From contig NZ_ADKM02000066.1 of the NCBI RefSeq assembly GCF_000178155.2, forward strand, positions 1 to 64,000: a stretch of DNA of 64,000 bases, in the 5' to 3' direction. The position numbers and the translations under genes were made by a program. The notes under the pieces were generated by a model. That model ran no database searches. It was given only the letters and a program-made list of their open reading frames with translations, and was not told the DNA's origin. The stretch's first letter is position 1; the number at the start of each line of letters is the position of its first letter. This document shows, one piece after another, positions 4,761-53,390 of this stretch. The stretch is from Hominimerdicola alba 8 (GTDB taxonomy: Bacteria > Bacillota > Clostridia > Oscillospirales > Ruminococcaceae).

Positions 4761-4836
4761 TGGTTATCCCGCTGACACACCACAAAAACGGCGGTTTTAC
4801 AGCATTTTCAGCCGTTGTGCCAAAGGGATAGTCATA
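4761..4836 (+). mobile_element. MITE-2 copy 1 (short, 76 bp)
   Basis: Both ends of the family are present: TGGTTATCCCGCTGACACACC at the left and TGTGCCAAAGGGATAGTCATA at the right; the middle is deleted or replaced. The flanking 10-mers AAATAAAACG and AAATAAGGGG agree at 7 of 10 positions and may be a worn target duplication. The element ends 18 bp before the antiporter ATG, so it forms part of its leader. Confidence 0.75.
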
Positions 4837-7685: not shown

Positions 7686-7945
7686 TGGTTATCCCGCTGA
7701 CACACCACAAAAACAACGGCTATACAGAACTTAAGGTTCCTGGCGTATATTTTTCCCCCGCCGCAGGCGGGGGGAAAATATACAATGCTCAATTATCCTT
7801 TTGTTTACCGCATTTTTATAGCAATCCGCCTTAAAATTCAGACAAAATCCAGTCACAAAACCCATAAATCCCAGCTTTTGCGACCGGATTTTGTGAATTT
7901 AAAAAGTTGGATTGCTATAGTTGGTGTGCTAAAGGGATAGTCATA
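7686..7945 (+). mobile_element. MITE-2 copy 2, interrupted by MITE-1 copy 3
   Basis: Left end TGGTTATCCCGCTGACACACC at 7686, internal GC-rich hairpin around CCCCCGCC..GGCGGGGG, right end GGGATAGTCATA at 7945. MITE-1 copy 3 (7819-7917) sits inside, near the right end. The flanking 10-mers CATAAAAATG and TCAAAAAATG agree at 7 of 10 positions. The right flank is the A-tract of the terminator hairpin at 7950-7988. Confidence 0.85.
7819..7917 (+). mobile_element. MITE-1 copy 3 (99 bp), nested in MITE-2
   Basis: TAGCAATCCGCC ... GTTGGATTGCTA with TA on both sides (7817-7818, 7918-7919). Uninterrupted MITE-2 copies read GCATTTTTAGTTGG at this place; here that string is split at TA, which shows it is an insertion. 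Confidence 0.9.
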
Positions 7946-12079: not shown

Positions 12080-12347
12080 TAGCAATCCAACTATTTAAAT
12101 TTATGACTATCCCTTTAGCACACCAACTAAAAATGCGGTGAACAAAAGGATAATTGAGCGTTGTATATCTTTCCCCCGCCTGCGGCGGGGGAAAGATATA
12201 CGCCAAGAACCTTAAGTTCTGTATAGCCGCTGTTTTGGTGGTGTGTCAGCGGGATAACCACGTTTAAATTTACAAAATCCGGTCGCAAAAGCTCGGATCT
12301 ATGGATTTTGTGACTGGATTTTGTCTGAATTTTAAGGCGGATTGCTA
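12080..12347 (-). mobile_element. MITE-1 copy 4, interrupted by MITE-2 copy 3
   Basis: TAGCAATCCAAC at the left and GCGGATTGCTA at the right, flanked by TA (12078-12079, 12348-12349). MITE-2 copy 3 is inserted at 12102-12260 into the TTTAAATT stretch. Without the insert and duplicated bases the element is about 99 bp, like the others. Confidence 0.88.
12102..12260 (-). mobile_element. MITE-2 copy 3 (159 bp), nested in MITE-1
   Basis: In inverse orientation: TATGACTATCCCTTTAGCAC at the left, GGGATAACCA at the right, with an internal CCCCCGCC..GGCGGGGG hairpin. The flanking 10-mers TATTTAAATT and CGTTTAAATT agree at 8 of 10 and duplicate the host MITE-1 sequence. It lies just downstream of the T-box terminator. 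Confidence 0.9.
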
Positions 12348-42173: not shown

Positions 42174-42216
42174 AACGCGCTCACGGGGAGTTTACTGTGA
42201 GCGCGTTATTTTTTTT
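42174..42216 (+). terminator. cellobiose phosphorylase terminator
   Basis: AACGCGCTCAC pairs with GTGAGCGCGTT and is followed by A and nine T. MITE-2 copy 5 starts in this T run. Confidence 0.92.
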
Positions 42217-42283
42217 GTTATCCCGCTGACACACCACAAAAACAGCGGCTATACAGAACTTAAGGTTCTTGGCGTATATTTTT
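42216..42283 (+). mobile_element. MITE-2 copy 5 (truncated)
   Basis: TTATCCCGCTGACACACC to CTTGGCGTATATTTTT matches the left half of the family; the first bases (TGG) and the right half are missing. The left end lies in the T-tract of the terminator; the right end joins an R3 fragment. Confidence 0.82.
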
Positions 42284-42352
42284 TTTCGACAAAAACAGCA
42301 TTCTTCCGCCCCTGCCAACAATTATGAATTATGAATTATGAATTATGAATTA
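42284..42352 (-). repeat. R3 family fragment (minus orientation)
   Basis: CAGCATTCTTCCGCCCCTGC followed by AATTATGA units: the first about 70 bases of R3 read on the minus strand, fused to the cut end of MITE-2 copy 5. Confidence 0.8.
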
Positions 42353-46338: not shown

Positions 46339-46429
46339 TATGGCTATCCCTTTAGCATACCAACTAAAAATGCGGTAAACAAAAGGATAATTGATCGCTG
46401 TTTTTTGTGGTGTGTCAGCGGGATAACCA
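46339..46429 (-). mobile_element. MITE-2 copy 6 (91 bp, internally deleted)
   Basis: Inverse orientation: TATGGCTATCCCTTTAGCAT at the left and GTCAGCGGGATAACCA at the right; the central GC hairpin is missing. Flanking 10-mers TAAAATATAA and TAAAATATGG agree at 8 of 10. A second GGTTATCCCTTTA stretch follows at 46438-46450. Confidence 0.78.
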
Positions 46430-46515
46430 TAAAATATGGTTATCCCTTTAAAACATCACTAAGAATAAATAGACAACAGGTACTAACTTATTATTATGCG
46501 AAAGGCGGTGAGTTA

Positions 46516-47577: not shown

Positions 47578-47607
47578 GTGTTACCTTGCATCAATGAATA
47601 AAAAATG

Positions 47608-47832
47608 TGGTTATCCCGCTGACACACCACAAAAACAGCGGCTATACAGAACTTATAGCAATCCAACTTTTTAAATTCACAAAATCCAGTCGCAAAAGCT
47701 GGGATTTATGGGTCTTGTGACTGGATTTTGTCTGAATTTTAAGGCGGATTGCTATAGGGTTCTTGGCGTATGGCGCTCAATTATCCTTTTGTTTACCGCA
47801 TTTTTAGTTGGTGTGCTAAAGGGATAGTCATA
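47608..47832 (+). mobile_element. MITE-2 copy 7, interrupted by MITE-1 copy 5
   Basis: Left end TGGTTATCCCGCTGACACACC at 47608, right end GGGATAGTCATA at 47832. A perfect 10-bp duplication ATAAAAAATG flanks it (47598-47607 and 47833-47842); the right copy is the A-tract of the terminator at 47835-47877. MITE-1 lies inside at 47656-47754. The GC hairpin of the middle is lost. Confidence 0.92.
47656..47754 (-). mobile_element. MITE-1 copy 5 (99 bp), nested in MITE-2
   Basis: TAGCAATCCAAC ... GCGGATTGCTA with TA on both sides (47654-47655, 47755-47756). It splits the MITE-2 string CAGAACTTAAGGTTCTTGG, which is whole in other copies. Confidence 0.92.
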
Positions 47833-47834
47833 AT

Positions 47835-47877
47835 AAAAAATGCGCGGACATCTGAACGTCCGCGCATTTTGTTTTTT
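47835..47877 (-). terminator. terminator of the dockerin/C39-like gene (bidirectional shape)
   Basis: ATGCGCGGAC pairs with GTCCGCGCAT around ATCTGAAC. A T run lies on both sides in the respective direction: TTTTTTAT on the minus strand and TTTTGTTTTTT on the plus strand. Confidence 0.85.
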
Positions 47878-51720: not shown

Positions 51721-51760
51721 AAAATGCGTGGGCGAAGATATTCGTTCACGCATTTTTATT
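51721..51760 (+). terminator. M23 gene terminator
   Basis: AAAATGCGTGGGCGAA pairs with TTCGTTCACGCATTTT around GATA, followed by TATTATG. MITE-2 copy 8 is inserted in its T-rich tail. Confidence 0.85.
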
Positions 51761-51763
51761 ATG

Positions 51764-51882
51764 TGGTTATCCCTCTGATACGCCAAAATAAACGATGTTA
51801 TATCGGGAACTGAATTGTAGCCGTCGGTCATCTTTCCTCGTTATAAAGGTTTTTGAGGTGGTGTGCTAAAGGGATAGTCATA
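51764..51882 (+). mobile_element. MITE-2 copy 8 (119 bp)
   Basis: TGGTTATCCCTCTGATACGCC ... GGGATAGTCATA with a perfect 10-bp target duplication TTTTATTATG (51754-51763, 51883-51892). The left duplication is the T-tract of the M23 terminator. The middle differs from most copies (GATGTTATATCGGGAACTGA) and matches copy 9, so they form a subfamily. Confidence 0.93.
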
Positions 51883-52033
51883 TTTTATTATGCTTGTCCC
51901 CGCAAGAGCTGTTCGGCGGGATAATTGCTGCGGGGTGGAAGAATAAATATGTCGTTTGCTATAAATATTTCTGTGCAGATTTGTGCAAGATGACACTCTG
52001 TTATGGGGTTTTGTGGAAATTTCTCAAAAATAC

Positions 52034-52062
52034 TTGCAAGATATGATAAAATGTGGTATAAT
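52034..52062 (+). promoter_or_regulatory. promoter of the PHP gene
   Basis: TTGCAA (52034-52039), 17 bp, TATAAT (52057-52062) with upstream TGTGG. It lies inside the longer open frame and so fixes the later coding start. Confidence 0.85.
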
Positions 52063-52177
52063 TATACGGTCGGTACAAGCTGACAATACTTCAACCAATA
52101 AAACTGTGATATTCAGTTTCCCGCACCGCAGGCTTTTGTGCGGTCGGGGCAGTCTTGATAAATGGGAGGTTCACTAT

Positions 52178-53068
52178 ATGATCGGTGATCTGCATTGCCA
52201 CACGACCTTGTCGGACGGCTCGATGGGTATAGAGGAAGTCATAGCGCAGGCTAAGCGCGTAGGTCTGGATTTTCTAGCGATAACAGACCACGATACGCTG
52301 TCTTCTTCAAGCCGCGCCCAGATATTGGGTGAACGCTACGGTGTCAAGATAATCCAGGCGGTGGAACTTTCGGCGTGGGACAAAGTGCGCGGTCAGAAGG
52401 TACACATACTTTGCTACGCGCCGCAGAAACCCAACAGGCTGGAGGGTCTGTGCCTTAAGTCCTGCACCATAAGGACGGAGTGCGCCAAAGAGATGATAGA
52501 AAAGGTGATGGCTCGTTACCCCATACCGCGCGATGCGGTGATGAAATACTGCAAGGGGTCTAAGAGCATATACAAGTCCCACATAATGCGGGCGCTGATA
52601 AGCTACGGCTATGCCACCGAGTTTTACGGCTCGGTCAATGACAGGCTGTTCTCCTATCCGCGCGGTGAATGTCTGGTGACCAGAGAATATCCCGATGTCA
52701 ATTTCGTGCTGGATATGATACATTCTTCAAAGGGCGTGGCTGTGCTGGCTCATCCGCACATGTTCGGCAATATAGAACTTATGAAGGATCTGACGGCGGC
52801 AGGCAAGCTGGACGGCATTGAGTGTTTCCACGTATCTGCGACCGATTCACAGCAGCAGGCGCTCAAAAAGTTTGCCGAAGAGAATGGTCTGCTGGTGACG
52901 GGCGGTTCGGACTTTCACGGCCTGTATAACTCGACCATGACCCATATAGGCAAATTTACGACAGATGAAGAGAACCTCGAAAAACTCTTCAAGCTGATAC
53001 ATGTCAATGCAAAAGCCGCCAAAAAAGCGGGCGAAGCGGCGTTCAACCAGCCCAAAGAGAAGGAATGA
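52178..53068 (+). CDS. PHP-domain phosphoesterase (TrpH/YciV-like)
   Basis: A 296-residue metal-dependent phosphoesterase. The start at 52178 follows GGGAGG by 7 bp and gives MIGDLHCHTTLSDGS, the first metal motif. Others: LAITDHDTLS (about 33-42), VELSAWD (Glu ligand, about 65), VLAHPHMFG (about 188-196) and GSDFHGLYNSTMTHIG (about 245-260). The middle insertion (about 95-150) is helical. Relatives act on 3',5'-bisphosphonucleotides or short RNAs (RNase AM); substrate here is not proved. MITE-2 copies lie on both sides. Confidence 0.88.
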   Translation: MIGDLHCHTTLSDGSMGIEEVIAQAKRVGLDFLAITDHDTLSSSSRAQILGERYGVKIIQAVELSAWDKVRGQKVHILCYAPQKPNRLEGLCLKSCTIRTECAKEMIEKVMARYPIPRDAVMKYCKGSKSIYKSHIMRALISYGYATEFYGSVNDRLFSYPRGECLVTREYPDVNFVLDMIHSSKGVAVLAHPHMFGNIELMKDLTAAGKLDGIECFHVSATDSQQQALKKFAEENGLLVTGGSDFHGLYNSTMTHIGKFTTDEENLEKLFKLIHVNAKAAKKAGEAAFNQPKEKE

Positions 53069-53109
53069 CTCTCCTGACTGCGGCAGACTTACAGAACCCG
53101 GATATTATC

Positions 53110-53140
53110 TGCGCGGACGAACATTCGCCCGCGCTTTTTA
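53110..53140 (+). terminator. PHP gene terminator
   Basis: GCGCGGACGAA pairs with TTCGCCCGCGC around CA, followed by TTTTTATTTTG. MITE-2 copy 9 is inserted in this tail. Confidence 0.87.
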
Positions 53141-53145
53141 TTTTG

Positions 53146-53307
53146 TGGTTATCCCGCTGACACACCAAAATAAAAGATGTTATATCGGGAACTGAATATA
53201 GTTGGCGTTTATCTTTCCACCTCCTGCGGCGGGGGAAAGATAACATCAACTCAGTATTTCCTTGTTATAAAGGTATTTTTTGGTTGTGTGCTGAAGGGAT
53301 AGTCATA
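53146..53307 (+). mobile_element. MITE-2 copy 9 (162 bp)
   Basis: TGGTTATCCCGCTGACACACC ... GGGATAGTCATA with a perfect 10-bp duplication TTTTATTTTG (53136-53145, 53308-53317), the left one being the terminator T-tract. A central hairpin with CTTTCC..GGGGGAAAG is present. Confidence 0.93.
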
Positions 53308-53390
53308 TTTTATTTTGAAAAATGTGTCCGCGCCGATAAGCTGTGCGTTTTGAGTCGAATTAACAAAAGGGTAACACATTCGGCGGTAAA

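Follow-up and report, generated by a model that had tools for sequence, protein, structure and literature searches.

The stretch of DNA analysed here, referred to as the window, comprises 64,000 nucleotides of the draft genome of Hominimerdicola alba 8 (4.05 Mb in 136 contigs, labelled G000 in this analysis). It holds nine places with the ends of a miniature element, MITE-2, of which seven have both ends and two are truncated, in agreement with the number given in the preliminary description of this DNA. The two end motifs have 14 and 12 matches in the window, where 2.9 are expected for either, and none of 100 shuffles reached these values.

The copy at 51764..51882 (forward strand, 119 bp) has both ends and an interior of the GATGTTATATCGGG subtype. 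It is flanked by the 8-bp duplication TTTTATTA (51754-51761 and 51883-51890), the TG at 51762-51763 is the element's own left dinucleotide, and its target is the T-tract of an intrinsic-terminator-like hairpin found by the hairpin scan at 51721..51756 on the forward strand. The next copy (53146..53307, forward, 162 bp) includes a hairpin, has TG as its left dinucleotide and the 8-bp duplication TTTTATTT (53136-53143 and 53308-53315), and sits in the T-tract of the hairpin immediately upstream. The copy at 47608..47832 (forward, 225 bp), duplication ATAAAAAA (47598-47605 and 47833-47840), adjoins a terminator-like hairpin called on both strands at 47837..47870, and that at 7686..7945 (forward, 260 bp) has a hairpin immediately to its right; both contain a copy of another miniature element, MITE-1. 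The 7686 copy is left out of the terminator counts below because its duplication is worn (3 mismatches). A short copy of 76 bp (4761..4836, forward), whose duplication has 2 mismatches, lies near a terminator-like hairpin, and a truncated one, reduced to its left part (42215..42287, forward, right limit approximate), lies in a hairpin T-tract. The others are a 159-bp copy inside a MITE-1 copy (12102..12260, reverse strand, duplication AATTTAAA), a 91-bp copy with both ends (46339..46429, reverse) and a fragment with a MITE-2-like left end (46437..46470, forward, right limit approximate). The placement of the copies at 7686, 42215, 47608, 51764 and 53146 at the side of a terminator, with that at 4761 close to one, thus reads as first described. 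MITE-1 (ends TATAGCAATCC) and MITE-2 nest mutually, as seen in the window at 7686-7945, 12102-12260 and 47608-47832, and MITE-2 encloses 11 of the 61 MITE-1 copies from two genomes.

Beyond the window, the 22-bp left end of MITE-2 has 177 matches in the H. alba 8 genome with at most 2 mismatches, and none for a reversed-pattern control. A sister genome (G018) has 293 left ends, 12 of the 29 genomes of the genus contain the left end, and viral contigs gave one match to the end pattern. Copies with paired ends show length peaks at 124-125 and 156-164 bp. MITE-2 is a short, repeated, non-coding element with terminal inverted repeats, i.e., a MITE. The copy sets used below comprise 115 copies among the matches listed for H. 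alba 8, and 84 copies taken from 40 stretches of G018.

Ends, duplication and target of MITE-2

Comparison of the left positions -10 to -3 with the right positions 1 to 8 revealed a perfect 8-bp duplication in 68 of the 115 H. alba 8 copies among the matches listed, with one mismatch in 10 more, and in 50 of the 84 G018 copies, with one mismatch in 9 more. The duplication is therefore of constant length, with at most one mismatch in 78/115 (among the matches listed) and 59/84 copies, respectively. Next to the left TGGTTATCCC of these copies stands a restricted dinucleotide, namely TG in 43, CG in 23, TA in 9 and CA in 3 of the 78 H. alba 8 copies (among the matches listed), and TG in 53 of the 59 from G018, whereas the two bases past the right duplication are mixed (TG in 22/78, among the matches listed, and 10/59). 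Because it is constrained on the left only, this dinucleotide is the element's own. MITE-2 is accordingly limited by the left end YRTGGTTATCCC and the right end GGGATAGTCATA, and duplicates 8 bp.

Empty sites lead to the same length. Between H. alba 8 and G018, 11 such sites were flagged (4 in one direction and 7 in the other), and five of them are a clean single copy of the target. In four of these, some of which also show base changes, the left dinucleotide is missing and the length is 8 bp (L119, L093 and L086 in G018; L023 in H. alba 8), while the pair L030/L101 is compatible with both 8 and 10 bp. The empty sites support a duplication of the target, but not of the 10 bp originally proposed: alignment in two genomes and the four deciding junctions agree on 8 bp, and the three cases read as perfect 10-bp duplications are those in which an AT-rich 8-mer happens to precede TG, the same letters as the left dinucleotide of the element.

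Rebuilding the target gives, in both genomes, the palindrome YA-W8-TR, symmetric about the 8 bp. An A precedes W8 in 86% of the H. alba 8 sites and 80% of those in G018, a T follows it in 78% and 83%, and the outer Y and R are weaker. Insertion into T- or A-tracts, as initially noticed, is borne out with W8 as the target.

A candidate partner of the IS1595 family

A scan of 396 genomes of the family for the shared ends matched 15 and led to one (G369) in which a pair of inverted ends, separated by 1,019 bp and flanked by the duplication TTATATAA, encloses an ORF of 291 amino acids. This insertion sequence (IS) of 1,023 bp has the ends, the 8-bp duplication and the target in common with MITE-2. 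Its ORF matches PF12762 at 78 bits (cut-off 27), PF12760 at 38.6 bits (cut-off 25.4) and the NCBIfam IS1595 model NF033547 at 159.3 bits (cut-off 75), and this combination of a zinc ribbon with an ISXO2-like DDE domain places it in the IS1595 family. For the catalytic residues of the putative partner transposase, we assume the DDN-type pattern of an IS1595 subgroup.

Matches to the transposase occur in 9 of the 29 genomes of the genus. Ruminococcus albus 7 has 42, 25 of them full length, and its copies carry the annotation "IS1595 family transposase"; the 25 and the G369 copy make a set of 26 distinct full-length elements (L166 was dropped as a duplicate of L218). A full-length transposase element with the ends of MITE-2, for which the preliminary description proposed a search, is thus present in relatives. 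The 8-bp duplication is perfect in 24 of the 26, is A/T-rich, and gives the same target logo as that of MITE-2, with T after W8 in 24/24 and A before it in 83%. The two elements share the terminal inverted repeat core TGGTTATCCC..T..CACACCA, about 22 terminal bases in all, and nothing of the interior, so that simple internal deletion of this IS does not account for MITE-2. R. albus 7 contains both elements, and two of the three MITE-2 copies checked there have the 8-bp duplication. On these grounds, an IS1595-family IS with matching ends, duplication and target is the likely autonomous partner of MITE-2.

No intact IS1595 transposase was seen in the 136 contigs of the H. alba 8 draft assembly, which holds four fragments of it, all on contig C113. 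The longest is without residues 1-57, its reading frame starting in other sequence. At L161:1381-2205 on this contig, the truncated transposase follows in frame on an N-terminal segment of foreign origin, which may resemble an IS66-type accessory protein. Other genera of the family have the end motif with different interiors (L138-L151; genomes G098, G362 and G063), several of them at contig ends. Longer units that have both ends between matching duplications were also considered as autonomous copies and set aside, as those found contain host DNA and no transposase.

Terminators near the insertion sites

Terminators were called by a simple in-house scan for a hairpin plus T-tract, and genes by a crude ORF caller. 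Copies were excluded if the duplication had more than 2 mismatches (27 of the 115 among the matches listed for H. alba 8; 24 of 84 in G018), and then if they lay inside ORFs or too near the end of a stretch (17 of 88 and 14 of 60). Matched controls, which omit the 60 bp around real sites, were available for 65 of the 71 remaining H. alba 8 sites, for 62 of the 66 outside the window, and for 42 of 46 in G018.

Of the 88 H. alba 8 copies (among the matches listed) whose duplication is readable, 23 have a terminator candidate within 15 bp. For intergenic copies the figures are 18/71, and 15/66 outside the window (likewise among the matches listed), against 4.5 and 4.3 expected at sites matched for target score, and 6.2 and 5.8 at sites also matched for distance to the gene 3'-end; the G018 count is 13/46, against 4.4 and 5.9. 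In both genomes, copies are hence some 2-5 times as often within 15 bp of a candidate as matched W8 sites are. A stricter scan gave 13/71 and 11/66 (among the matches listed) and 11/46 for G018, with 2.6-4.3 expected, and the weakest comparison was that within 5 bp in G018, where 9/46 stand against 4.9 at doubly matched sites, a value reached in 74 of 2000 draws. The window is richer than the genome, with 3 of its 5 usable intergenic sites within 15 bp. Full-length IS copies lie within 15 bp in 5 of 26 cases against 1.69 expected (binomial P 0.024), and in 3 of 26 against 0.56 with the stricter scan, these controls including genic sites; the excess is smaller against intergenic controls only (82/848 within 15 bp), and within 5 bp it is 2/26 against 1.10.

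MITE-1, which has other ends and a TA target, offers a comparison: 10 of its 38 intergenic copies lie within 15 bp, with 4.2 expected from controls that are intergenic TA sites, not score-matched. This share equals that of MITE-2 (31/117, its copies among the matches listed; Fisher P 1.0), although the strict scan within 5 bp leans to MITE-2 (20/117, among the matches listed, against 3/38; Fisher P 0.20).

At filled sites the scan still calls a hairpin with its T-tract in all 23 H. alba 8 cases (among the matches listed) and in 16 of 18 in G018. On the sequence, the suggestion that duplication of the tract preserves the host terminator is supported. MITE-2 lies on the strand of the terminator in 15/23 (among the matches listed) and 4/18 of these cases, without preference in orientation. 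Moreover, 92 of the 115 copies among the matches listed for H. alba 8 are intergenic, compared with about two thirds of high-scoring W8 sites, a surplus that fits the loss of genic hits; intergenic IS copies (12/26) are close to the W8 controls (848/2108).

The excess near terminators is real but is a minority pattern, since about three quarters of the intergenic copies lie elsewhere. The idea of terminators as a real target preference, raised in the preliminary description, is therefore weakly supported: the excess over matched W8 sites stands, but most copies are away from any candidate, the outcome that the preliminary description itself named as refuting the idea, and the equal share of the unrelated MITE-1 does not support a target specific to MITE-2.

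Explanations weighed and related systems

The shared ends, duplication and target lead us to infer mobilisation in trans, and very probably MITE-2 is a non-autonomous element moved by an IS1595-family transposase, with W8 targeting and survival explaining its excess near terminators. The transposase would bind the ends common to IS and MITE-2, cut a W-rich target with an 8-bp stagger, and insert the MITE there. Copies would then accumulate between genes, as W8 sites are commoner there and hits inside genes are lost, and the T- or A-tracts of terminators would be one class of W8 site. As a hit in such a tract duplicates it, the hairpin would keep a T-tract and the insertion would be nearly harmless. 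Some sites filled in H. alba 8 or G018 are empty in the other; with only transposase fragments in the draft of H. alba 8, movement may now be stalled there, or may rely on a copy lost in assembly gaps.

The excess near terminators is best explained by W-rich targeting together with the survival of insertions that cause no damage, and terminators look more like easy, harmless landing places than a dedicated target. Survival alone sits less well with the R. albus 7 IS copies, which are probably younger and are mildly enriched near terminators too; this enrichment is weak evidence for a modest bias at insertion. A true preference, with insertion guided to terminators by the transposase or by the DNA or transcription complex present there, would agree with it, with the doubly matched excess in H. 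alba 8 outside the window and in G018, and with the lean to MITE-2 at the closest and strictest setting. We nevertheless regard it as unlikely, given the many copies far from any candidate, the equal share of MITE-1, the weak excess within 5 bp in G018 and for the IS, and the lack of orientation preference. Similarly doubtful is a broader proposal, in which the IS1595 transposase is truly but modestly biased to terminators, the duplication of the T-tract is a built-in way of inserting without disrupting termination, and the MITE ends also move host DNA (the 1,172-bp and 509-bp units described below). If true, such a bias would have a DNA transposon doing what group IIC introns do, which are mobile elements that insert after intrinsic terminators; these are retroelements with a ribozyme and a reverse transcriptase, unlike MITE-2, a short piece of DNA that ends in inverted repeats and duplicates its target.

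Two other explanations concern the driver and the role of the element. A driver of MITE-2 from some other transposase family, one that makes a 10-bp duplication, is extremely improbable: the 10 matching bases of three window copies and the TG on both sides of 17/78 H. alba 8 copies (among the matches listed) speak for it, but that number is near chance (about 12 expected; 10 against 9 in G018), left ends with CG never have CG at the right in the H. alba 8 copies among the matches listed, the target is symmetric about 8 bp, and the IS4-type (PF01609) and ISL3-type (PF01610) loci fetched have no MITE-2-like end pair around the transposase. Retention of MITE-2 as a terminator or regulatory hairpin is also very unlikely, despite a structure that invites it. 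The window copies fold as long hairpins, and the long GC hairpin first noted in several copies is confirmed, its stem being 12 bp or longer, in 73 of 199 copies from the two genomes (those of H. alba 8 among the matches listed). Its arms change together among copies (pair 12 is C-G in 50 and T-A in 16 of the 73), so that a near-perfect palindrome is kept. Yet most copies are without it, MITE-2 is found alike between divergent (22), tandem (32) and convergent (16) genes of H. alba 8 (among the matches listed), and scans of six window copies on both strands found no internal hairpin with T-tract (0/12), which leaves the proposal that the element replaces or adds a terminator without support.

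In this last respect the MITE-2 copies scanned differ from the SPRITE, RUP and BOX repeats of Streptococcus pneumoniae, which are likewise small and mutually nested, and some of which are terminator-like according to PMC10969869. The same source describes bacterial MITEs as tending to AT-rich intergenic sites; MITE-2 resembles them in this and in being short and non-coding, with inverted ends, duplications and stable hairpins, and differs from MITEs in general by its tie to a named transposase family. Within that family, ISApl4 has A/T-rich 8-bp direct repeats, as reported in PMC12561309, and is like the partner IS in transposase family, duplication and inverted ends. IS1595-family elements encode a transposase; MITE-2 has none, and shares the terminal repeat alone. 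Searches of the open-licence literature found papers that mention IS1595 together with MITEs, and none on miniature inverted repeats in R. albus or on Ruminococcus with both a MITE and a transposase; as far as these searches show, MITE-2 is a new family of a known kind. This orphan repeat, whose left ends number 177 and 293 in two Ruminococcus-type genomes, is tied to a named transposase family and has its boundaries and target fixed, and R. albus 7, which holds IS and MITE-2, offers a system in which a terminator preference of DNA transposons can be told from mere survival.

Units that carry host DNA between MITE-2 ends were observed as well. Among 89 left-right end pairs that are not partners, 2 have an exact 8-bp match, and two such units are known (L078 and L090). 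The first, on contig C119 of H. alba 8 (L078:1851-3022), is 1,172 bp long, is bounded by MITE-2 ends with an 8-bp duplication that matches exactly, and contains a membrane-protein-like gene of 240 amino acids from the first ATG, which has other locations in all seven relatives that possess it. We do not put it forward as a cleanly transposed gene, since the same terminator site in G018 bears the right end of a MITE-2, making recombination into an older MITE as likely. The second, in G018 (L090:8856-9364), is a 509-bp unit in which MITE-2 ends with an exact duplication surround about 400 bp of non-MITE DNA; a partial copy lies at another G018 site (L112:10192-10364), and the inner DNA occurs without MITE ends in H. 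alba 8 (L234) at 88% identity.
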